Assembly (NCBI GenBank): GCA_913057775.1
Contig: CAJXOG010000004.1
Location: 186,001 to 250,000, forward strand
Length of the DNA stretch: 64,000 nucleotides
Source: an uncultured Fodinibius sp.
Lineage (GTDB): Bacteria; Bacteroidota; Rhodothermia; Balneolales; Balneolaceae
Direction of reading: 5' to 3'
Shown one piece after another: positions 49,321 to 59,595 of this stretch. Each line of letters opens with the position of its first letter. The first letter of the stretch is position 1. The position numbers and the translations under genes are program-made. The notes under the pieces were generated by a model that was given only the letters and a program-made list of their open reading frames with translations, was not told where the DNA came from and made no database searches.

Positions 49321-52300
49321 CTATTTTTCAATAAGCACGGTGATCGGATGCTCTATTGCGGGGATATCAGCAAGCTTTTGTTGCAATTCCTTGGTCCGTG
49401 TCCATGATGTAAGTCCTTCAAAAACAATGGTACCATCAGAAGTTTTATTGAATTCTGCTCCTGATTCAGGATCAATCAAGGATTTTAATAATTCTTCGTC
49501 AATTTCATTTGACAGTTTTTCTATGCGGATTTGAAAACTAAACTTCATGGCCCGCTCTTCTTTCTCACCAAGATATAGCGAATAGCTTTGAATGTTTTCC
49601 AATGAGGTCTCTTTATAAGAAGGGTTAGCTTGTATAGCCGTTAACTCTGATTCTATCTCTTTCTTGGAATAATATCGCTCATCTACATATACCAAATACT
49701 GATCTTTGGCCTCACTAAAACTGATGGAAGTTAAGATGTCCAAGTCATTTTTGGATTGTTCAGCGAAGCGGTTAGCAGCATCTTTTGCCTTAAATTCTCC
49801 AAGCTTGATAAAGTCTGTTTGAGGGGCGTCAGGTTTAATATCTTTGCTATCAAGGATAACCAATGCAGCTCTTTCAAATATATTGCTGCGATATGATAAA
49901 ATATTTTTGATGGCTTGATTCCGATTTGGCAGGGGGAGGCTGCGAATAGCGTATAAGTCGGTGTTTGTATTAAGGATTACACTAAAAGATGCATTAAGTC
50001 TATTTGATGCTTCCATAGCAACATCTTTAGCTTTGGATAAGGTCTTGAAGCTGGCAATCTGGATTTTGTAGTAGAGTTCCTGATCGGATATATAAGTAGT
50101 ATCAGCTGCTGGTTTAGGAGATACGCTATCTGCTGCAATGGGCTCAAGTGTAGACTTAGGTGTCAGTGTAAAGTTCAATCCTTCTACAAAATCTCCCTCG
50201 GCAAGGGCTTTAACCTCAACCTGCATGGTATCGGGTTGCGAATTAACATCAAGAAATTCCAGCTGTTTGTCATCTATATATAAATCATAGTTTCCCGGTG
50301 GAATTTCATAGGCATAAAAGGTACCGTCACTAAAGGTGCGCATTTCTTTTGTATAGGTCGTATCCTCTTTAGAATCCAAATAAACGCGAAGGCCGGATTG
50401 TGGATTCTCATTTCCCTTGTTCACTTTTACAACATTGCCGGATATTACGCCGGAAGTATAGAACGGAATATCTATCGGTTTATACTGGTTGGGATCTGTA
50501 ACAATAGAAAATTCTTCTATCTCGGGGACCAACATTGGATTCTTTATAGCTGATTGATTGATCTCCATATTAATTCTGTGGTAGGACTGAAGCTGGCTGA
50601 AACGAAGGATACCCTCCGAAGATGTCGACATGACACCCGCTCGTCCAATACGAACTGCTTCTTCGTTTATTACGTCATCTCCCTCATCATAAGTGCCGGA
50701 GTCGTTTGCATCCACATAAAGACGAACAGATGTTGCAGAACGTCCTACCTGCTGCCTGTTCGAAACGGTTAAATCGTTATTATAGTCATCATATCCGATC
50801 GAACCTCTTATATTCTGAGAGAAGGAATATTGATTTCTCACGCTCCTGGCATTTGATGTACTGCGAAATGCATTGAAATCGATGGTCAGACCCACGTTTA
50901 GGAAATTCAAATCATTTAAAAAATTTCTGGAGTAAGAGGCCTGAATTCTTCCGTGCTCAAATATACTTTTGGAGGCTTGTATTTCGGCCTCTCGAAATGC
51001 ACCAATCCCCGGACTATAATCGATACTACCACTAACAAAAGTATTTTGTAGATACCGAGGGATGTTGGGAGTTCTGGAAATGAGGTATGTAGCAGATGCG
51101 CTCAAATCTGAGCTGTTGCTTGGATTGAACGAAAAATCTCCGAACTGACGATCCCGGTAGCTAAACCTCACATTTAGGCGATTGATTCGAGAGTTCAGGT
51201 CGATGGAATAGCTCATATTATCCTGCGGGGAATTTTGAGCATAATTTCCCTGAAATCGAAAATTTAACGGGATCTCTCCAATTGATAATGGGAAAAATGC
51301 ATTGGCTGAAAATTCCTGTTCGTTGCCGACCGGATTATAAATCCGGTTGTCGGTATAATTAGTGTAGTTTAATCCCCAGCTGGCAGATGAGGGATAAATA
51401 ACATTCCCGGATATTCGGTAGAAAGCATTGGGTGCGATATCGAGATTTAACAGGTAATCATCGAATACGCGTGCAGAAGTTGAACTGAAGAAAACAGGAG
51501 ACTGATTGGAATACTCATTGTAATATTCTACACCAACTTGCTGGGTCAGCCAGTTGGAAATTCCATAAGCTACATCGCCTTGCGTCATATAACTTTCGGT
51601 TGTGGTACCGAAAAAAGCATTATCAAGTTGCCCGGCATTAAAGTGATAGTTGAATTCTCCTTCCGGCAGAAAGTTGAAGGGTATCTGTATTCGCTCTTCT
51701 CGTTCCTGGATGCGACCGTCCGGACCATAGATTCGCAACCGCAATCGCGAAGTGCCATAGGTGAGTGGTACTAGAAAACGATACTGTTCGTCTTCCGTTA
51801 TTCTGGTAAAGTCATAGAGTGAATTATTGTAGTATAGCTCAACTTCTGAGCCAATAGGGGCCGTTCCCTCCACTTCATATGAATCGTACATATAGCGGGG
51901 CTCAATAGGTTCGTTCGTTAATCGTATCCCTGTAAAATTTCGACTGGTTAAACCATCAGAACGTGTTTGTCCGACGTATATTTGGCTCAGATAGTCGTTA
52001 TTCCGCATAACGTATCGCCAGCGAAGATTACGGGTAGTAAAGTTTGATGAGCCGCCAGAATAGTTGCCAAAGGCAGAGCCCTCGAGATCTCCTCCGGCTA
52101 TTTCCGCTCCCAGATCAAAATTATAGCTATAGGAATTTTGGTTTTCGTTTATGATTGAGGTGAGTGAATAGTCGAAAAAACCGCCTCCGAATAAGGTTCG
52201 ATCTCGTTCATAGATAAGTGGATGAAAATTTTGTTCAATGCTGGCTTTTTCTTGACGCTCTCTACGCCGTTGCCGCTCATACTCTTCAACGATGGGCAAG

Positions 52301-52812
52301 GTGTTCGGGGTTTCGAGCTGCAACAGGAGATTATTAAGGTCAACAGTGAAGTTTAGGTCAAACACTTCTGAGAGCACATCGAGGCTCACGTAGAAATCGA
52401 GCTCCTTAACCAGCATTTTGGAAGCATCATAAGGGAAGGTTCCCTTATTTTCCAGCGCTATTTCATAGTTACTAAAGTCGAAGCGGAAATTATTATCGGG
52501 ATCAAGATAAAAACCCTGGATAGATAAACTGCCATTGTCTACCTTGTGAGAGATTTTTAGGCTGCTGAATATTTCTGAAACCGGAAGATAATAGGTACCA
52601 TCCTCATAATAGGCGGTTATAACCTTTTCAAAGAAATTACGGTAGGTGAAAGAAAGGAATATCTCCTGTTGATTTGACTGCTGCTGGTCCGCCTGCTCGT
52701 CTTGAAAATTGGAGGCCGGTGCAGTCTTGCTATCATTATCAAAAGAAAGGGCAGGCGTACTTAAAGCGAATAAAAGAAGAGTTAGAATTAAAAAACGTCC
52801 TTCTTTACTCAC
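49321..52812 (-). CDS. Usher-like outer-membrane protein with C-terminal SPOR-like repeats
   Basis: A 1163-residue exported protein. An N-terminal domain of about 170 residues (AYYEDGTYYLPVSEIFSSLKI in parts) precedes a large barrel-like region (about 190-690) rich in aromatic strands. Next comes an SdrD/Cna-type segment (VRLYVDANDSGTYDEGDDVI, about 700-725), then a carboxypeptidase-like beta domain. From about 902 there are SPOR-like repeats (YYKIQIASFKTLSKAKDVA; FIKLGEFKAKDAANRF). Position next to a PapD-type chaperone and several pilins supports an usher for fimbrial assembly. The SPOR tail could bind peptidoglycan. It overlaps the chaperone gene by 4 bp. Confidence 0.75.
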   Translation of the reverse strand: MSKEGRFLILTLLLFALSTPALSFDNDSKTAPASNFQDEQADQQQSNQQEIFLSFTYRNFFEKVITAYYEDGTYYLPVSEIFSSLKISHKVDNGSLSIQGFYLDPDNNFRFDFSNYEIALENKGTFPYDASKMLVKELDFYVSLDVLSEVFDLNFTVDLNNLLLQLETPNTLPIVEEYERQRRRERQEKASIEQNFHPLIYERDRTLFGGGFFDYSLTSIINENQNSYSYNFDLGAEIAGGDLEGSAFGNYSGGSSNFTTRNLRWRYVMRNNDYLSQIYVGQTRSDGLTSRNFTGIRLTNEPIEPRYMYDSYEVEGTAPIGSEVELYYNNSLYDFTRITEDEQYRFLVPLTYGTSRLRLRIYGPDGRIQEREERIQIPFNFLPEGEFNYHFNAGQLDNAFFGTTTESYMTQGDVAYGISNWLTQQVGVEYYNEYSNQSPVFFSSTSARVFDDYLLNLDIAPNAFYRISGNVIYPSSASWGLNYTNYTDNRIYNPVGNEQEFSANAFFPLSIGEIPLNFRFQGNYAQNSPQDNMSYSIDLNSRINRLNVRFSYRDRQFGDFSFNPSNSSDLSASATYLISRTPNIPRYLQNTFVSGSIDYSPGIGAFREAEIQASKSIFEHGRIQASYSRNFLNDLNFLNVGLTIDFNAFRSTSNARSVRNQYSFSQNIRGSIGYDDYNNDLTVSNRQQVGRSATSVRLYVDANDSGTYDEGDDVINEEAVRIGRAGVMSTSSEGILRFSQLQSYHRINMEINQSAIKNPMLVPEIEEFSIVTDPNQYKPIDIPFYTSGVISGNVVKVNKGNENPQSGLRVYLDSKEDTTYTKEMRTFSDGTFYAYEIPPGNYDLYIDDKQLEFLDVNSQPDTMQVEVKALAEGDFVEGLNFTLTPKSTLEPIAADSVSPKPAADTTYISDQELYYKIQIASFKTLSKAKDVAMEASNRLNASFSVILNTNTDLYAIRSLPLPNRNQAIKNILSYRSNIFERAALVILDSKDIKPDAPQTDFIKLGEFKAKDAANRFAEQSKNDLDILTSISFSEAKDQYLVYVDERYYSKKEIESELTAIQANPSYKETSLENIQSYSLYLGEKEERAMKFSFQIRIEKLSNEIDEELLKSLIDPESGAEFNKTSDGTIVFEGLTSWTRTKELQQKLADIPAIEHPITVLIEK

Positions 52813-53633
52813 TTTTTGGTGAAGTTTATGGATTGAGATACGGGCTCCATCTGAACGATGTTTTCCGAAGGTACATCGGGACGCTGCGTTTCAAATGTAA
52901 TTTCGGCGGAATATTCTCCATTTTCGAACTCATCCTGCGCTACCTCAAATACTTGTCGGTACTTAAAATAGATAGAAGTAGAAGTGCGTTTTTCAACCAC
53001 GGTATTTCCGTTGCTATCGGAAATAGTTAAAATGATAGACCCGAGAAAAGGAGAGTTACCAGATCTGTTGACATCAGCGATAAATTCGAAGTTATCTTCA
53101 GAGTTGTGATGGGTAAACTCTTGGATCTCTATCCCGGTGTTGGTATCGCCGTGTTTGTAGAATAAGGTCGTTACCTGTTCAAATTTATAGGTGATTTGGG
53201 CCGTTATCCCATCGTCGGTTTCCTCACCTACAGCAGGATTTTGAGCACTTGAGGTTGTTTTAATACGTGTCCAGTAGGTGCCATCCGAAAAGTCCTTGGG
53301 TCTTACGGTCATCCGAACGGTTTGCCGCTGGCCGGGTTGCAGAACAAAATTTTGTGGAAAGCCCTTGACCAAATTATCAATACCATATTGCTGGGCCCGG
53401 CTGCTGTCGTCATACACCATTTCTACATTCCCCTCAGTGTTGGTTGTAGGGTAGCCGAAGGGAAATTCAATGGAGACCTCCTGGGCCTGATCTGATCCGT
53501 TAAGCACCAAAAAGCTCCCAAAGCGTTCTTGCTGGTCGATGAAAACCATGGTGGGAGCAATAGTAATTTGCGCCTTGGCGCCTGTAAGCAACACCCCAAA
53601 AATAAGCAGAAATATTAAGGACAGTTTTTTCAT
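52809..53633 (-). CDS. PapD-type periplasmic fimbrial chaperone
   Basis: A 274-residue exported protein with a signal peptide (to about 21) and a PapD-like Ig fold: ITIAPTMVFIDQQERFGSFLVLNG in parts, then QTVRMTVRPKD near residue 105, corresponding to the G1-type strand and subunit-binding region. The second domain is longer than in enterobacterial chaperones. It should hold pilin subunits before the usher. The usher gene follows directly with a 4-bp overlap. Confidence 0.8.
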   Translation of the reverse strand: MKKLSLIFLLIFGVLLTGAKAQITIAPTMVFIDQQERFGSFLVLNGSDQAQEVSIEFPFGYPTTNTEGNVEMVYDDSSRAQQYGIDNLVKGFPQNFVLQPGQRQTVRMTVRPKDFSDGTYWTRIKTTSSAQNPAVGEETDDGITAQITYKFEQVTTLFYKHGDTNTGIEIQEFTHHNSEDNFEFIADVNRSGNSPFLGSIILTISDSNGNTVVEKRTSTSIYFKYRQVFEVAQDEFENGEYSAEITFETQRPDVPSENIVQMEPVSQSINFTKK

Positions 53634-53734
53634 CTCGGGTAGACTGGTTTTAATTGCCGTTGAGGGAACCTAAGAAATTTGTGTAAAAAAGCATAGGAAA
53701 CTGCTGCTAGAACTATTCTGGCCTGCCTATAAAT

Positions 53735-53768
53735 AAAAAAGCCAAGACGGATTAGGTCTTGGCTTTTT
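53735..53768 (-). terminator. Bidirectional terminator between pilin and chaperone genes
   Basis: AAAAAAGCCAAGAC and GTCTTGGCTTTTT form a perfect stem around a 7-nt loop, with T-runs on both strands. It separates the pilin gene at 53786 from the chaperone-usher pair. Confidence 0.9.
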
Positions 53769-53785
53769 GAATGATATACTGAACC

Positions 53786-54283
53786 CTAGTTATAAGAAGC
53801 TGTGAGGATAATTTCCTCTGAGTAATTACCGGCAGTTTGATTAGTTGCAGCATCAATACTACCACCTATGAATACATGGATGGTATTATCTGAGTCCGCT
53901 GAGAGAGCAGTAGTAGTAGTTCCTGTGGTAGGATTAAATGTATTACTTTGACTAGTCGATTCATTGTCCCAAGCAGCACTGCTGTTATCAAAGTTGATAG
54001 CAATGTCAGCACCAGGACCCACTAGGTTTCCACCATTTGCAAAAGAAAAACTTAGGTCAAGCTGACCGCCATTACCTGTTACTTGGAATGTTCCAGCAGT
54101 AGCATCACCAACCGCTACAGTACTGTTAGCTCCAGCCGCCAGAGTTCCAAAGTCTAAGTTACTTCCTTCGGTAATAGATACATTTGATTCAACAGTTGCG
54201 GTAGCATCAATTTGTGCATTAGCAATTGTTGTCATTCCTGCGGTGATAAGTAGTGCGAGAGTAAGTTGGAATAATCGTTTCAT
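53786..54283 (-). CDS. DUF4402 pilin subunit, probable major
   Basis: A 165-residue exported beta-sandwich protein (signal peptide to about 23, ANAQ). DUF4402 features are VESNVSITEGSNLDFGTLAAG, the GTFQVTGNGGQLDLSF strand and the C-terminal NYSEEIILTASYN. Small, neutral residues dominate. A strong terminator directly follows, and the gene lies apart from the other three pilin genes, so it may be the abundant shaft subunit. Confidence 0.85.
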   Translation of the reverse strand: MKRLFQLTLALLITAGMTTIANAQIDATATVESNVSITEGSNLDFGTLAAGANSTVAVGDATAGTFQVTGNGGQLDLSFSFANGGNLVGPGADIAINFDNSSAAWDNESTSQSNTFNPTTGTTTTALSADSDNTIHVFIGGSIDAATNQTAGNYSEEIILTASYN

Positions 54284-54504
54284 AATTTGAGCCGTTTGTT
54301 ATTGTTTGTAGATAAATTAATTTCTTTTCTTTCTTCACTCCCAAGATAAAAATGATCTCTTGGGTCTCCTAGTTAGAGCCTTTTAATTAAAGGATTCTAA
54401 ACTTTATTGTAGCACCATCAACTGGTACCATTCTTCATGGAGCAAAACAATAAGTATTCTAGAAGACGTTTCATATTGGCCGAAGATTAATAAATTGTAA
54501 TGGT

Positions 54505-55032
54505 CTATTGGTAGACGACGTTTAAAACCAATGTGCCGGAGTAGGAGCCGGGAGCAATATCGCCGACGTCAATATTACCAAAGATATACACGTAGCCGGT
54601 ATCCCAAACCTGTTCATTATCACCGCTGAGGTTTATATGGAGCTCTTTATTGGCAAAAGGTGAATAATCCTGGTAATTGGTTGCGTCGGGGGCATAGGCT
54701 GCATCCAGATTAAGTGGGATAGTATTTGTAGTATCTTGGTCACCAGACGGTGATAAGCGGTCGGGTTTATGTAGGGTAAGAATCGCACTTTGCGCAGCCA
54801 GTGCTCTTATTTTGAAGATCCCCATTTGTGGGTTGCCCAATCTTATCTGATGGGTACCGCTGTTGGTGACCACCGTCCCAAAATTTAGATCCTGAAGCAC
54901 CTCTACGCCTAACTCAGGCTGTACATCCATGTTAAAACGAACGGTTTGGGCTTGGCTGGAGTGGGCAAGTGGAAGAGCTAAAAGTGCAACACAAAATAAA
55001 ATTTTAATCCGCTTTCTAATCATACTCAACAT
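54505..55032 (-). CDS. DUF4402-like pilin subunit
   Basis: A 175-residue exported protein (signal peptide ending SSQAQ). It has VLQDLNFGTVVTNSGTHQI, GIFKIRALAAQSAILTL and the C-terminal PGSYSGTLVLNVVY, the same plan as the neighbours. It overlaps the upstream gene by 17 bp; ATG at 55023 is an alternative start with a smaller overlap. Probably a minor or adaptor subunit. Confidence 0.8.
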   Translation of the reverse strand: MLSMIRKRIKILFCVALLALPLAHSSQAQTVRFNMDVQPELGVEVLQDLNFGTVVTNSGTHQIRLGNPQMGIFKIRALAAQSAILTLHKPDRLSPSGDQDTTNTIPLNLDAAYAPDATNYQDYSPFANKELHINLSGDNEQVWDTGYVYIFGNIDVGDIAPGSYSGTLVLNVVYQ

Positions 55033-55561
55033 TAATATTTATGGTTCCGGTATAAGTTCCGGCTCTGTTATTTCCAACTTCTATATCTCCATAAATGTAC
55101 AAGTATGCTTTTGCAGTCGGTTGACCACCGCCATTATTTCCTCCACCGGCCCAAGGGGGAGGACCGCCACCTCTGTCATCATATATTGGAAATGATGCTG
55201 AACCATTGGTAATGGAATTATCTTGTGCTTGGGTTTTGTCTTCTTCTCCTTCATTTGCATAGGAGGCTTTCAAGGTGTAGGGAATTATATTTGAAGCATC
55301 AAGAATCAGGTTTTGGCTTGTTATTGAGACATAGATATCCCGGTCCTTATTGCCCTTAATGCTGATAACCTCTGTTCTGGAGTCCATCAGGTTTATGGTA
55401 TATTGTTGATCTTGTAGAACTGTACCGTAATCCAGATTTCCATCAGTCAAGACAGTGACGGTCAATTCGGGAGGCGCCTCTATATTGAGTGCAAACGTCT
55501 GACCGTATACCATAGTCACCGGCAGAAACAGCAGCGTTATAAAAGTAAAAATTTTTTTCAT
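55016..55561 (-). CDS. DUF4402-like pilin subunit with Gly-rich insert
   Basis: A 181-residue exported protein (cleavage near VYGQ). It has LTDGNLDYGTVLQDQQYTINL and the end RAGTYTGTININVEYD. Between about 130 and 150 lies a Gly/Pro-rich loop (GGGPPPWAGGGNNGGG) not seen in its paralogues, which could be surface-exposed. It is central in a tight three-gene run. Confidence 0.8.
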   Translation of the reverse strand: MKKIFTFITLLFLPVTMVYGQTFALNIEAPPELTVTVLTDGNLDYGTVLQDQQYTINLMDSRTEVISIKGNKDRDIYVSITSQNLILDASNIIPYTLKASYANEGEEDKTQAQDNSITNGSASFPIYDDRGGGPPPWAGGGNNGGGQPTAKAYLYIYGDIEVGNNRAGTYTGTININVEYD

Positions 55562-55579
55562 AGAGAGTGCCTAACAGGA

Positions 55580-56101
55580 TTAAATATATTCAACCTCAAT
55601 GGTGAAGTTACCGTTGTAATTCCCCGGCTTTGCATTTTCAACGTTTATCTGCCCGCCAATCCAAAAATAATACTCTCCGTTGCCATTGAGTGTCAGGTCG
55701 CGATTATCGGTTTGCAGAATTTCGGCCGAGCTCTGATCATCTTCATCATTGCCCGCAATTTCATAGGTAAAGGTTAGTGTATTGGAACCGCTGGCGTGTC
55801 TTAATGTGCGCTCACGGACAAAGCTAACCCGAATTTGGGAATCAGCGTTACCCAAGGCAATCATTTTGCCTGTGTTGGCATCAGAAAGCGGATCAATGGA
55901 AATAAGTTGCTGGCTGGGCTGTACGGGACTAAAATCCATATCCCGGACCGTAATCATTTCTATGGATTCGACGACCTGGGCAGAAGCGCTAATGCTAATT
56001 CTGCTGGACGCTTCGTCCTGATCTTGTGCCGTCGCGGTAAGGGTAGTAAAACCTATTACTGCTAATATAAGCAGCAATACTGTAGTTGATTTTTGCATCA
56101 A
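55580..56101 (-). CDS. DUF4402-like pilin subunit
   Basis: A 173-residue exported protein (signal peptide ending TATAQ). It has SASAQVVESIEMITVRDMDFS, then IRVSFVRERTL, and the C-terminal PGNYNGNFTIEVEY. First of the pilin run on the minus strand, 18 bp before the next gene. Its higher polarity suggests a tip or base subunit, but that is guesswork. Confidence 0.8.
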   Translation of the reverse strand: MMQKSTTVLLLILAVIGFTTLTATAQDQDEASSRISISASAQVVESIEMITVRDMDFSPVQPSQQLISIDPLSDANTGKMIALGNADSQIRVSFVRERTLRHASGSNTLTFTYEIAGNDEDDQSSAEILQTDNRDLTLNGNGEYYFWIGGQINVENAKPGNYNGNFTIEVEYI

Positions 56102-56289: not shown

Positions 56290-57327
56290 TCAGTTATAAA
56301 TACTAATAGGCTTGTAAGTTTTATCCAATGCATTTCGTGCAGCTAAATCAGCATATTGATGCATTCGACAGTCATATTGAATACCAAAATTACCATTGAT
56401 ACTGAGATCAACATTTTTGTTGCTGCTGGTAGTGCCAACCAATACCGAGCCGTTGAGATTAGCGGTACCATTCCCAAGAACGACATCTTCGTCTTCAAAT
56501 ATAGTTAAACCGTTAAAATCAAAATTCCCGTTAATTCGACCACCATCCCTAATTATTAGAATGCCGTAGCCAGTAACATTTCCGTTGAGTCTTGTTTGAT
56601 CATCTATAACAAACACCCCGGGATTGGCAGGTCCGGAACGGTTTAAGTCCGTTTTGTCGGTTACCTTTGTTCCTCTATTAATAAGTCGGGCAACCGTTTC
56701 TTGGTAATCAGTGTAGTCCAGATCGCTGTCAACTTCGATGGACGGTGAACCGGAAATCCCCTTTTTGTTACCACCGCCTCCTTTTCCTTTCTCGCCATCT
56801 TTTCCGGTTTCATCTTCGATCTGATCTTTTTGATCATCCCGGATGACTTCAACTCCCGGTTTGTCGGGACAACCGCTTACTGCTGAAGCATTACCGCTAA
56901 TAGAGAAGGAGCCTCCCATTTTACTGACTGTAAAATTGTCTGTGATAAGAGACAGCGCACTTTCAAAAGCAGGAATAACGCCTACATTATCTTGAATGAG
57001 ATGGCTCGCTATGATCGTGTGGTTTTCGGGTGCTCCTGCTATTTTTCCTGTAGAGGTAATCCGGAGAGTATCTGAAATTTCCTGAACCGAATAATCGACT
57101 GATCCATAGTCAAATTGCTTGCTTGTTTTTCCTGTCCAGGTGCCATTTTTATCATATTTGGTTATCGCAAACTGTATGCCGGTATGGGCTAAGTTTTTAA
57201 CAATGGCTCTGTTGGCCGTTTCTACAGAAAGTTTAGTCATACTTTCCTTTTGGTTGGACATACCCATGAAAACATATCCGAGGGCAACCATTAATCCTGC
57301 GATAATAATAAGCATTGCTCGACCCAT
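56290..57327 (-). CDS. PilX-like/pilin-like surface protein
   Basis: A 345-residue protein with an N-terminal hydrophobic helix (MGRAMLIIIAGLMVALGYVF) that looks like a pilin-type anchor, but with no standard prepilin Gly-Phe-Thr-Leu-Ile-Glu site. The C-terminal half has a repeat-rich region with the GNVTGYGILIIRDGGRINGN and NLNGSVLVG pattern, suggesting a beta-helix-like fold as in some PilX-type proteins. A Lys/Gly-rich linker lies at about 175-200. It is 31% or so identical by eye to the next gene product; I have not computed this. Last gene of the operon. Confidence 0.6.
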   Translation of the reverse strand: MGRAMLIIIAGLMVALGYVFMGMSNQKESMTKLSVETANRAIVKNLAHTGIQFAITKYDKNGTWTGKTSKQFDYGSVDYSVQEISDTLRITSTGKIAGAPENHTIIASHLIQDNVGVIPAFESALSLITDNFTVSKMGGSFSISGNASAVSGCPDKPGVEVIRDDQKDQIEDETGKDGEKGKGGGGNKKGISGSPSIEVDSDLDYTDYQETVARLINRGTKVTDKTDLNRSGPANPGVFVIDDQTRLNGNVTGYGILIIRDGGRINGNFDFNGLTIFEDEDVVLGNGTANLNGSVLVGTTSSNKNVDLSINGNFGIQYDCRMHQYADLAARNALDKTYKPISIYN

Positions 57328-57452
57328 AATGTCATAATTTTCTTAATATTTTTAGTCTCTCTTGATGTATTTTGATTCTGCTCCAAATAACTTGCAGAAA
57401 AGTGAATTTATCGTAAAAGTGTTTATAAGCTAAAAAATATCAATAAACGTCA

Positions 57453-58472
57453 TTATTCATACATACTGATTGGAGTGTAAAGAGTGGTGTTTAGAACTTT
57501 ATTTGCCGCGACGTCTGTATATTTTTCTTGGGCCTGACAATCATAATTTGCTTGCATATTACCATTCCCCATGATGTCTAAATTTGCCCCATAGTCTGAC
57601 ATCGCCATAATTGATCCATTAATTGTTGCGTTACCTGCAGCTTTAAATTGCGTTTCATTTTCGAAAATAACTAAACCGTTAAATTCAAATTGACCAGCCA
57701 TCATAACGTCTGAGTCTATTTCTAACTGCGCATTATTTCGCACAATTAAAATTCCATAACCCGTAGTGTTACCACTTATTGTTAATTTACTGTCGATAGA
57801 GTAAACCCCTGGATTGTCACTGGTACTGTTATCAAAATCATTTTTATGACTAATAGTTTTAGAATGGGGAATTAGCCTGTCGATTAAGTTTCTTATATCT
57901 TGATGGGCTATTTTAGAATTATGAGCTACAGCGGGATCCCCTTCTATTCTACTGTCATCATCGTGATCATCAACTTGACTAGGATCATTAACTGTTAATC
58001 CCGGTTTATCTTCGCAAGTTCCGCTATTGTCGTTTCCATTGTAGTGAGTTTGCGGATTTGAATTCGAAAAAGTTATGCTTCCACTTACACTACTTAAAGC
58101 GCCTTGAAATTTAGGTACAACTTGTTGGTTCTTACTTATATCATAGGTAGCAGTAATAGTGTGGTCATTGCTGGCTCCGTTCAGGTTTGCAGTAGAGGTT
58201 ATTTCTAAAATTTCATTTGAAACATCATGATTGATTGAAACCTCAACGGTTCCCTTCTCAAGATTAAATTTCCCACCACTCCAGCTATTGTCTTCATCAA
58301 ACTCTTCCAGGGCAAATTGGATGCCGGTATGCGACAGATTCTGTGCCAATGCCTTGTTGGCCTTACTCACAGATTGACTTGTTAACGCCTGACGCTGGTT
58401 CGACATTCCCATAAAGGTGTAACCTAGGGCTACTAACATCCCTGTTACGATAATTAACATTGCTCGTCCCAT
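57453..58472 (-). CDS. PilX-like/pilin-like surface protein, paralogue
   Basis: A 339-residue paralogue of the 56290 product, with almost the same anchor (MGRAMLIIVTGMLVALGYTF), a CEDKPGLTV segment matching CPDKPGVEV in the paralogue, and the same GNTTGYGILIVRNNAQLE beta repeats. A single pair of cysteines is shared, one near the middle and one in NYDCQ near the C-terminus, possibly a disulfide. Tandem duplication is likely. Confidence 0.6.
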   Translation of the reverse strand: MGRAMLIIVTGMLVALGYTFMGMSNQRQALTSQSVSKANKALAQNLSHTGIQFALEEFDEDNSWSGGKFNLEKGTVEVSINHDVSNEILEITSTANLNGASNDHTITATYDISKNQQVVPKFQGALSSVSGSITFSNSNPQTHYNGNDNSGTCEDKPGLTVNDPSQVDDHDDDSRIEGDPAVAHNSKIAHQDIRNLIDRLIPHSKTISHKNDFDNSTSDNPGVYSIDSKLTISGNTTGYGILIVRNNAQLEIDSDVMMAGQFEFNGLVIFENETQFKAAGNATINGSIMAMSDYGANLDIMGNGNMQANYDCQAQEKYTDVAANKVLNTTLYTPISMYE

Positions 58473-58482
58473 AATAAAACCT

Positions 58483-59061
58483 CTATAGTCTTAGATTTAT
58501 TGGTGTAAATTGTTTTTGCCAAGTTACTTCGATGTATTTTGGATCAGAAGAGCCCAAGCCCCCTACTTTTTCCTTGCTTTGTAGAGTATATGAAATATCT
58601 ATAAATCTGATTTTATCCCGTTCACTTTGTGCTCCACTAAGTAGTTCAGAAAGCAAACTTATATCTATCTTATTTTTATCACTGTCAAAATATTCAATCT
58701 CAAAATTGGATACGTTTTTAAACGTTGTTTCCGTACCTCCAACATCACGGGTAAGCGTGTTGTCGCTGCTATTGTACTCCCAGATTACGGTTTCTTTGGT
58801 TCCATCATTGTCAATGTCTCCCTCAAATTTAATTTTTCCTTCCTGGGCATCTTTTATAGGGGAGGGGATAGCACCCATTTCTTTGTATCCAACATTGGGA
58901 ATACCCTTGCCTAAAATTTCATTAATGGTATTTGACTTTGTTTCGGTAATCTGACGCATAGTAAGCTGTGTGGAGCTCTGCGATAGATTCATATTCATCG
59001 TCAGAATACTCAGTAGCAAAATACCTGCTACAATAAAGCTTGTGGTCAATCCTATATTCAT
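58483..59061 (-). CDS. Pilin-like protein with N-terminal helix
   Basis: A 192-residue protein with a hydrophobic N-terminal helix (MNIGLTTSFIVAGILLLSIL) followed by polar Gln/Ser-rich helix continuation and a beta-rich C-terminal half (DNTLTRDVGGTETTFKNVSNFEIEYFD). The plan is that of a minor pseudopilin such as PulJ, but without the classic cleavage motif. It is in the middle of the four-gene operon. Confidence 0.55.
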   Translation of the reverse strand: MNIGLTTSFIVAGILLLSILTMNMNLSQSSTQLTMRQITETKSNTINEILGKGIPNVGYKEMGAIPSPIKDAQEGKIKFEGDIDNDGTKETVIWEYNSSDNTLTRDVGGTETTFKNVSNFEIEYFDSDKNKIDISLLSELLSGAQSERDKIRFIDISYTLQSKEKVGGLGSSDPKYIEVTWQKQFTPINLRL

Positions 59062-59070
59062 AGTTCTGAT

Positions 59071-59595
59071 TTATTGGGTTTTATAATATCTGCGTAAATA
59101 TGGTACACGTATTTCAATCTTGTCGCCGTTGTTATCAGTCAGATAGTCACTGGTCACAGTTACAACCATCTTTTTAAATTCTGTATAAGGCGTTCCCGTA
59201 TGTCCGCTGGCCATATCAAAGCCGGAAGATGAGCTTACGTATAAAACCTGGATACTTACATTGAACGCTCCGTCTCCAGATCCTTTTTGCCAATCGACAG
59301 TCTCGTTCAATCCATGGTAGTCGTCAAAGTCATTGAAATCTGAAAGATTGGCTTGGCCACAAGAAGAGAATCCTTCAGGTACTTGTGCTGGAGGCCCACC
59401 AGCAGTGTTTGCATCAAAAGGCAAGGCACGCGCTTCGTCAATATAGGTTTGTGCAATGGTAATAGCCTTTTTTTCTGCAGAGCTCTCTATTTCTTTCTGG
59501 CTGTTAATAAAGATCATCCTATTAGATGTCAATAGAATTAGCGAAAACAGCACCATCGCCGCCATTGTTTGTATTACTTCACTGTATCCGACCAT
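59071..59595 (-). CDS. Pilin-like protein with N-terminal helix
   Basis: A 174-residue protein with a hydrophobic N-terminal helix (MVGYSEVIQTMAAMVLFSLILL), followed by a helix region (KEIESSAEKKAITIAQTYIDEARALPFD), and a C-terminal beta part. It is first of the four-gene minus-strand operon. The overall plan resembles minor pseudopilins; no ATPase or prepilin peptidase gene is in the window. Confidence 0.55.
   Translation of the reverse strand: MVGYSEVIQTMAAMVLFSLILLTSNRMIFINSQKEIESSAEKKAITIAQTYIDEARALPFDANTAGGPPAQVPEGFSSCGQANLSDFNDFDDYHGLNETVDWQKGSGDGAFNVSIQVLYVSSSSGFDMASGHTGTPYTEFKKMVVTVTSDYLTDNNGDKIEIRVPYLRRYYKTQ

Follow-up and report, generated by a model that had tools for sequence, protein, structure and literature searches.

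Leaderless minor-pilin candidates in a Fodinibius genome and a type IVa-like pilus system with no detectable prepilin peptidase

Four leaderless genes and their order in relatives

The stretch of DNA analysed here (the window: 64,000 nucleotides, forward-strand positions 186,001 to 250,000 of contig CAJXOG010000004.1, assembly GCA_913057775.1, an uncultured Fodinibius sp. of the Balneolaceae) carries on its minus strand a set of four genes whose products, here called A, B, C1 and C2, are putative minor pilins of a type IVa-like pilus:

59595-59071, minus strand: A, 174 residues; leaderless candidate minor pilin, GspI/PilV-like in place and register, start (M)VGYSEVI
59061-58483, minus strand: B, 192 residues; leaderless candidate minor pilin with a modelled GspJ/PilW-type fold
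58472-57453, minus strand: C1, 339 residues; leaderless candidate minor pilin, modelled as a pilin domain with an inserted, ComZ-like beta-solenoid
57327-56290, minus strand: C2, 345 residues; leaderless candidate minor pilin, paralogue of C1

In all four the hydrophobic helix begins almost at residue 1, and the original prediction, made from the letters of the window, was correct that this pilin-like helix is preceded by no cleavage site. An in-frame stop lies upstream of the ATG by 4 (A), 3 (B), 6 (C1) and 5 (C2) codons, and therefore no prepilin leader could be encoded with any start codon; wrongly chosen start codons are thus ruled out as the cause of the missing leader. C1 and C2 do share the start MGRAMLII that had been pointed out, and are 41–42% identical (42% over residues 1–337); GYGILI(I/V)R, which had been described as beta repeats, is not repeated within a chain but occurs once per C protein, is common to both paralogues and falls inside the predicted beta-solenoid. 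Profile searches assigned the set to no unrelated family, as no accepted Pfam or NCBIfam match was obtained for any of the four. Among the individual Pfam models, N_methyl matched neither these proteins nor P, the putative major pilin described below, PilX_N (PF14341) did not match C1 or C2, and a chaperone-usher pilin domain (DUF4402 or fimbrial) was absent from A, B, C1 and C2. We rejected identities as the archaellum stator ArlF, for which C2 scored only 13.5 bits against an NCBIfam equivalog cut-off of 110, and as prokaryotic gasdermin or poxvirus rpo30_N, the matches to which were far below their cut-offs.

An acidic residue 6 was present in 56 of 76 A-family open reading frames (ORFs); this would be position 5 after removal of Met, corresponding to Glu5 of ordinary pilins. 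Residue 2 was Gly in 79 of the 83 C ORFs of the fetched loci; this Gly is not kept in A and B, Asn being second in B and in many A proteins.

A homologue of C was present in 36 of 58 relatives. Named genomes met in the wider comparison included those of Fodinibius/Aliifodinibius, Rhodohalobacter, Gracilimonas and Ignavibacteria, among others. A search of relatives for pilus genes beside the set had been suggested at the outset, and it succeeded: the order P-PilC-PilB-A-B-C-PilT was kept in 15 fetched loci (L045, L047, L053, L055-L059, L064, L069, L084, L144, L146, L149 and L150), so that A-B-C there lies inside a type IV pilus operon. We left L116 out of this count as it comes from the same genome as L047, and some loci from different searches share genomes. 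Some of the 15 loci hold a second A-B-C set or additional copies of C. In the window's genome A-B-C is absent from the machine operon and the sets stand apart; contig 11 holds a further A-B-C set, which contains a third C gene. The A-B-C gene order is conserved in many loci, which is more than chance, and this synteny supports the assignment of A-B-C to the type IV pilus machine. In a same-genus relative, a 2538-residue surface protein (L034:1510-9126; Invasin_D3, Laminin_G_3 and Por_Secre_tail domains) is encoded directly upstream of a double A-B-C set.

The pilus machine, its putative major pilin and the search for a peptidase

The machine operon of the window's genome (3.1 Mb in 21 contigs, stated completeness 100%) is on contig 1 and encodes P, an O-antigen-ligase-like protein, PilC, PilB, a cyclic-nucleotide-binding protein, PilT, a PilM-like protein, PilO and a secretin (PilQ), the last of which carries a SPOR tail. 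Scores over the cut-offs were obtained for the assembly ATPase (PF00437, 340.7 bits, cut-off 24.9), PilT (TIGR01420, the PilT/PilU family, 320.9 bits, cut-off 319.1), the platform protein (PF00482, 101 bits, cut-off 25.2), the secretin (PF00263, 105.7 bits, cut-off 27.5) and PilO (PF04350, 27.9 bits, cut-off 22). These components rule out the idea that the genome has no pilus machine. The original prediction had remarked that no secretion ATPase or peptidase is nearby; this holds, in that both T2SSE-type ATPases of the genome are on a contig other than that of A-B-C1-C2 and the genome as a whole yielded no A24 peptidase (see below), but a machine does exist elsewhere. Two other members of the operon deserve mention: the O-antigen-ligase-like Wzy_C gene between P and PilC (L054:568-2064) raises the possibility of pilin glycosylation, and the cyclic-nucleotide-binding protein (L054:5500-6003) sits between PilB and PilT, which is the place of A-B-C in relatives. 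ORFs resembling the latter, as judged by eye, occur in L053, L060 and L061.

P has 145 residues, with the leaderless start MGQQQLLLVILV and a sequence beginning MGQQQLLLVILVTIIVG. Its place at the head of the operon, an N-terminal helix of the pilin type and strong sequence conservation point to it as the probable major pilin. The mean majority fraction of its N-terminal 27 residues is 0.92, versus 0.46 for the rest, which fits a packing helix rather than a signal peptide. The start MGQQQLLL is nearly invariant, other families of the phylum included. When ORFs in the fetched loci were read from stop to stop, 106 matched the P profile; 98 of these were leaderless, starting with MG (97) or MA (one), and the other eight carried classical leaders. 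A start codon coincided with the first model position in 100 ORFs (the 98 leaderless and two canonical ones); in these the median distance from the start to the preceding stop was 4 codons, with 81 at ≤10 codons, and 96 had no other start codon upstream. Matches of P to MacB_PCD and GspH were below their cut-offs and were set aside, as were the P-versus-canonical E-values of an earlier P profile, which had absorbed two canonical pilins. The window's genome has a second P-type pilin (L095:8990-9373; MGQQQLLLVILVTILVG), solitary and far from the machine.

In the same genome no match to A24 (PF01478) was over the cut-off, the best having an E-value of 0.575, and A24_N (PF06750) had no match at E 10. 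The best A24 candidate, at C8:74894, was rejected as a hidden peptidase gene; it resembles DUF6789 weakly (5e-4, itself below the cut-off). The same search, run as a control, gave matches in 12 of 14 well-known genomes and in sister genomes. Among 244 genomes sampled from the class, the P profile matched in 157 and A24 was over the cut-off in 18, with both in 14, so that A24 over the cut-off was missing in 143 of the 157; in a phylum sample of 394 genomes the corresponding figures were 130, 49 and 15, with A24 missing in 115 of the 130, where the two samples share genomes, the list overlaps were counted by hand, and a P-profile match alone does not establish a leaderless start, starts having been read only in loci that were fetched. 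Of the 58 nearest genomes, 41 matched the P profile, and all of these were among the 44 with T2SSE over the cut-off; the remaining 14 gave no match. Neither of two hallmarks of type IV pili, the class III leader and the A24 peptidase, was found for the system of the window's genome.

Predicted folds and kinship with ordinary minor pilins

Structure prediction, one of the checks proposed for these genes, gave for B a model (pLDDT 88.7) with one long helix (residues 3–56) and an antiparallel sheet. In VIA, a second look that re-aligns Foldseek's own candidates, its ten top rows were all GspJ-type or TTHA1219 (Z 11.0–12.0, the next row having Z 5.4), and the match to the GspJ fold ran from residue 1 (9a1f_S, model residues 1–192). 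The C1 model (pLDDT 84.3) combines a helix (residues 3–60) and a sheet like that of pilins with a region rich in beta structure. By VIA, residues 118–317 of C1 matched ice-binding solenoids (Z up to 11.7), and there were further matches to the S. sanguinis minor pilin PilA (Z 10.2, 92 aligned residues, 2.3 Å) and to Thermus ComZ (Z 9.7 with 256 aligned residues at a root-mean-square deviation of 11.4, the two domains not being superposed together); its pilin part matched GspI/XcpV chains with Z of about 7. The models support B as a GspJ/PilW-type minor pilin and C as a minor pilin with a ComZ-like inserted solenoid (GspK/PilX/ComZ-like), which bears out the resemblance to minor pseudopilins seen earlier in the sequence (GspJ/XcpW for B, ComZ for the architecture of C). 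Based on gene order and register, A would be GspI/PilV-like.

A further line of evidence comes from homologs that have kept a leader. A C homologue in a metagenome-assembled genome labelled Deltaproteobacteria (L120) has an ordinary leader, ending ...ASQRG before TALLLVV, and its operon encodes an A24 peptidase (A24_N 7.6e-34, A24 9.3e-22), a FimT/GspH protein and two N_methyl pilins, one PilV-like and one PilW-like, beside the C homologue. The leaderless-C profile matches this protein along its length at 1.7e-37, with the G of MGR on Gly-1, and the protein scores 24.0 against PilX_N (PF14341), just under the cut-off of 25.5. Similarly, the leaderless-B profile matches canonical-leader PilW-like proteins of L120 (1e-6) and L124 (2.5e-10).

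The eight canonical-leader pilins found with the P profile (in L062, L067, L079, L080, L081, L097, L100 and L101) provide an internal control. All eight adjoin a small membrane protein with a GxGD motif, as expected of A24, and the positions of these proteins coincide with those of the A24 matches. L062 encodes a system equipped with an ATPase, a secretin and leader-bearing pilins of its own, and the same genome also holds the leaderless system (L045). In these sequences leader and peptidase occur together, and the leaderless system has neither. In some relatives, the region L062:7087-17033 and similar loci form a separate, peptidase-bearing secretion or pilus system with canonical leaders and a gene content like that of the Cytophaga-type type II secretion system (T2SS).

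Interpretation, alternatives and the adjacent locus

We are fairly confident that A-B-C1-C2 are minor pilins of a type IVa-like pilus whose machine is encoded elsewhere in the genome, whose pilins are all leaderless and which has no prepilin peptidase. We also think it likely that a deep bacterial lineage, which takes in the class together with other families of its phylum, no longer processes prepilins, the pilins of this system being born mature and their competence for assembly being set by the translation start (together with Met excision). Translation of every pilin would begin at, or a few residues from, the mature N-terminus, leaving no leader to remove, and the pilins would enter the inner membrane via their N-terminal helix, an insertion route and topology that we presume. 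A-B-C would form the tip or priming complex, as GspI-J-K do, PilB and PilC would add the major pilin beneath it, PilT would retract the filament and PilQ would be its exit. C may display its solenoid at the tip as an adhesin or a DNA receptor, with a correspondingly conjectural ligand, and two copies of C may allow alternative tips. Removal of Met by methionine aminopeptidase is possibly the sole N-terminal processing, given Gly or Ala as the second residue of P and Gly in nearly all C proteins. The presence of ComEC in the genome fits DNA uptake, though ComEC is common to most bacteria. Of the two roles originally envisaged for the four genes, an unusual filament tip finds support in the folds of B and C, but a separate surface structure without machinery does not, since the machine is in the genome and A-B-C is in its operon in relatives.

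Several points weigh against this interpretation. Foldseek alone gave no match at E ≤ 0.001 for the B or C1 model, its rankings for both were led by unrelated folds, with the GspJ-type rows outside the 50 shown for B, and only VIA ranked pilins first; the models cover B and C1, and the assignment of A draws on gene order and register. A clean leaderless-P profile had no significant match to the canonical pilins (best E-value 0.0025 among the eight). PilB, PilC and PilQ are under NCBI's narrow cut-offs, e.g., PilB scored 442.8 bits against the TIGR02538 equivalog with a cut-off of 675.65, and the filament is a prediction from the genes and models. Met removal cannot be general because Asn is second in B and in many A proteins, and a replacement peptidase of some unrecognised family may lie beyond the reach of a profile search.

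A peptidase of another family is the core of one alternative, in which Met-Gly is a minimal leader and the Gly of MG is the former Gly-1. The second residue is indeed Gly in 97 of the 98 leaderless P proteins and in the C ORFs at the frequency given above, and the G of MGR aligns with Gly-1 of the canonical homologue; however, Gly 2 is not kept in A and B, one P has Ala, methionine aminopeptidase accounts for Gly or Ala equally well, and no further protease was found among the conserved machine genes (other operon genes were not systematically screened), so that we regard a Met-Gly leader as rather unlikely. It is unlikely, too, that A-B-C do not build the filament and are instead accessory proteins anchored in the membrane, stator-like as ArlF/ArlG of archaella, to which the weak ArlF match of C2 (13.5 bits against 110) would point, or components of the neighbouring chaperone-usher-like system, as might be suggested by the fact that 11 of the 17 non-machine loci with C also encode a homolog of the window's chaperone-like protein. 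Against this, A-B-C is within the pilus machine operon in the 15 loci, where the stretches fetched contained no homologue of the chaperone, the GspJ fold of B is predicted from residue 1, and the homology of C to a minor pilin with a canonical leader runs the length of the protein. That this is an ordinary type IV pilus whose leader and peptidase were missed, through wrong starts, a divergent A24 or an assembly gap, is very unlikely: the genome is split into 21 contigs and minimal A24 enzymes can be divergent, but the upstream stops in the window and in the 100 P ORFs largely refute a missed leader, and a missed peptidase is at odds with the stated completeness, with the detection of A24 by the same profile in sister genomes and controls, and with a best candidate that is weakly DUF6789-like and an A24_N search that gave nothing.

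Taking A-B-C as leaderless minor pilins, we compared the system with known ones. It has the same machine parts and gene logic as the type IVa pilus (PilB/C/T/M/O/Q and FimT-PilV-PilW-PilX), the A-B-C order corresponding to the PilV-PilW-PilX order as in L120, but the class III leader and A24 peptidase of that pilus are both missing. Passages of PMC4471445 and PMC6668835 treat the leader and the prepilin peptidase as core type IV features, and the former describes the peptidase as missing only in Nanoarchaeota. As here, the loci of MSH pili lack a peptidase of their own, but as described in part of PMC6668835 their genomes hold one elsewhere, unlike the genome studied here. The T2SS tip GspI-GspJ-GspK is likewise a three-protein set, whereas the present one is leaderless and tied to a PilT-bearing machine. 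The Cytophaga-type T2SS differs in having an A24 protein, CHU_3197 (identified as such in a passage of PMC5553014); the second system of the eight A24-positive relatives looks like it. According to sections of PMC6561018, ComZ of Thermus thermophilus is a tip-associated competence pilin whose sheet contains an inserted solenoid, most similar to the ice-binding protein FfIBP, and is proposed to act as a DNA receptor at the tip. C shares this architecture and its nearest solenoids are also ice-binding proteins such as FfIBP, but it has a smaller solenoid, a leaderless start and an operon with A and B; by analogy, C might be a DNA receptor as well. Lastly, in the part of the Melioribacter roseus genome paper (2013; PMC3534657) that deals with these genes, pilT, pilQ, pilB and pilC were recorded and pilA and pilD were not found, a set that its authors judged probably incomplete; it may instead be a further case of the leaderless system. 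A literature search whose coverage left out most subscription journals and preprints brought up no account of bacterial type IV pili that lack leaders or the peptidase, and a passage of PMC6060240 is silent on the matter.

Prepilin cleavage is regarded as a defining common step of type IV filaments, and it is seemingly missing in a whole bacterial group, in a system that appears leaderless and peptidase-free throughout, the putative major pilin included, which goes beyond what the original prediction could see in the window. If this is true, the group offers a natural test of the purpose of cleavage (release of the N-terminus, timing or N-methylation), there would be an explanation for genomes such as that of M. 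roseus, which have pilB/C/T/Q without a recognised pilA or pilD, and leader-based pilin finders would overlook the pili in much of the phylum.

Next to the four genes, at 49321-56101 of the window, is a chaperone-usher-like locus, linked to the pilus set but outside it:

55580..56101, minus strand: DUF4402 subunit (Pfam DUF4402, 1.3e-7), first gene of the locus; adjoins A-B-C in other genomes
55016..55561, minus strand: weak DUF4402-like subunit (0.0065, below cut-off)
54505..55032, minus strand: weak DUF4402-like subunit (0.0021, below cut-off)
53786..54283, minus strand: DUF4402 subunit (3.2e-7)
52809..53633, minus strand: periplasmic-chaperone-like protein (no Pfam family at 0.01; labelled from an earlier chaperone-usher note and its look)
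49321..52812, minus strand: usher-like protein with a SPOR domain (1e-6; no usher profile match, label unconfirmed), kept beside the chaperone-like gene

The chaperone-like homologue was missing in the non-machine loci L036, L037, L042, L050 and L051, and L052 has only DUF4402-like genes. Its recurrence near C in the other 11 of the 17 suggests, from gene neighbourhood, that two pilus types are used or regulated together.

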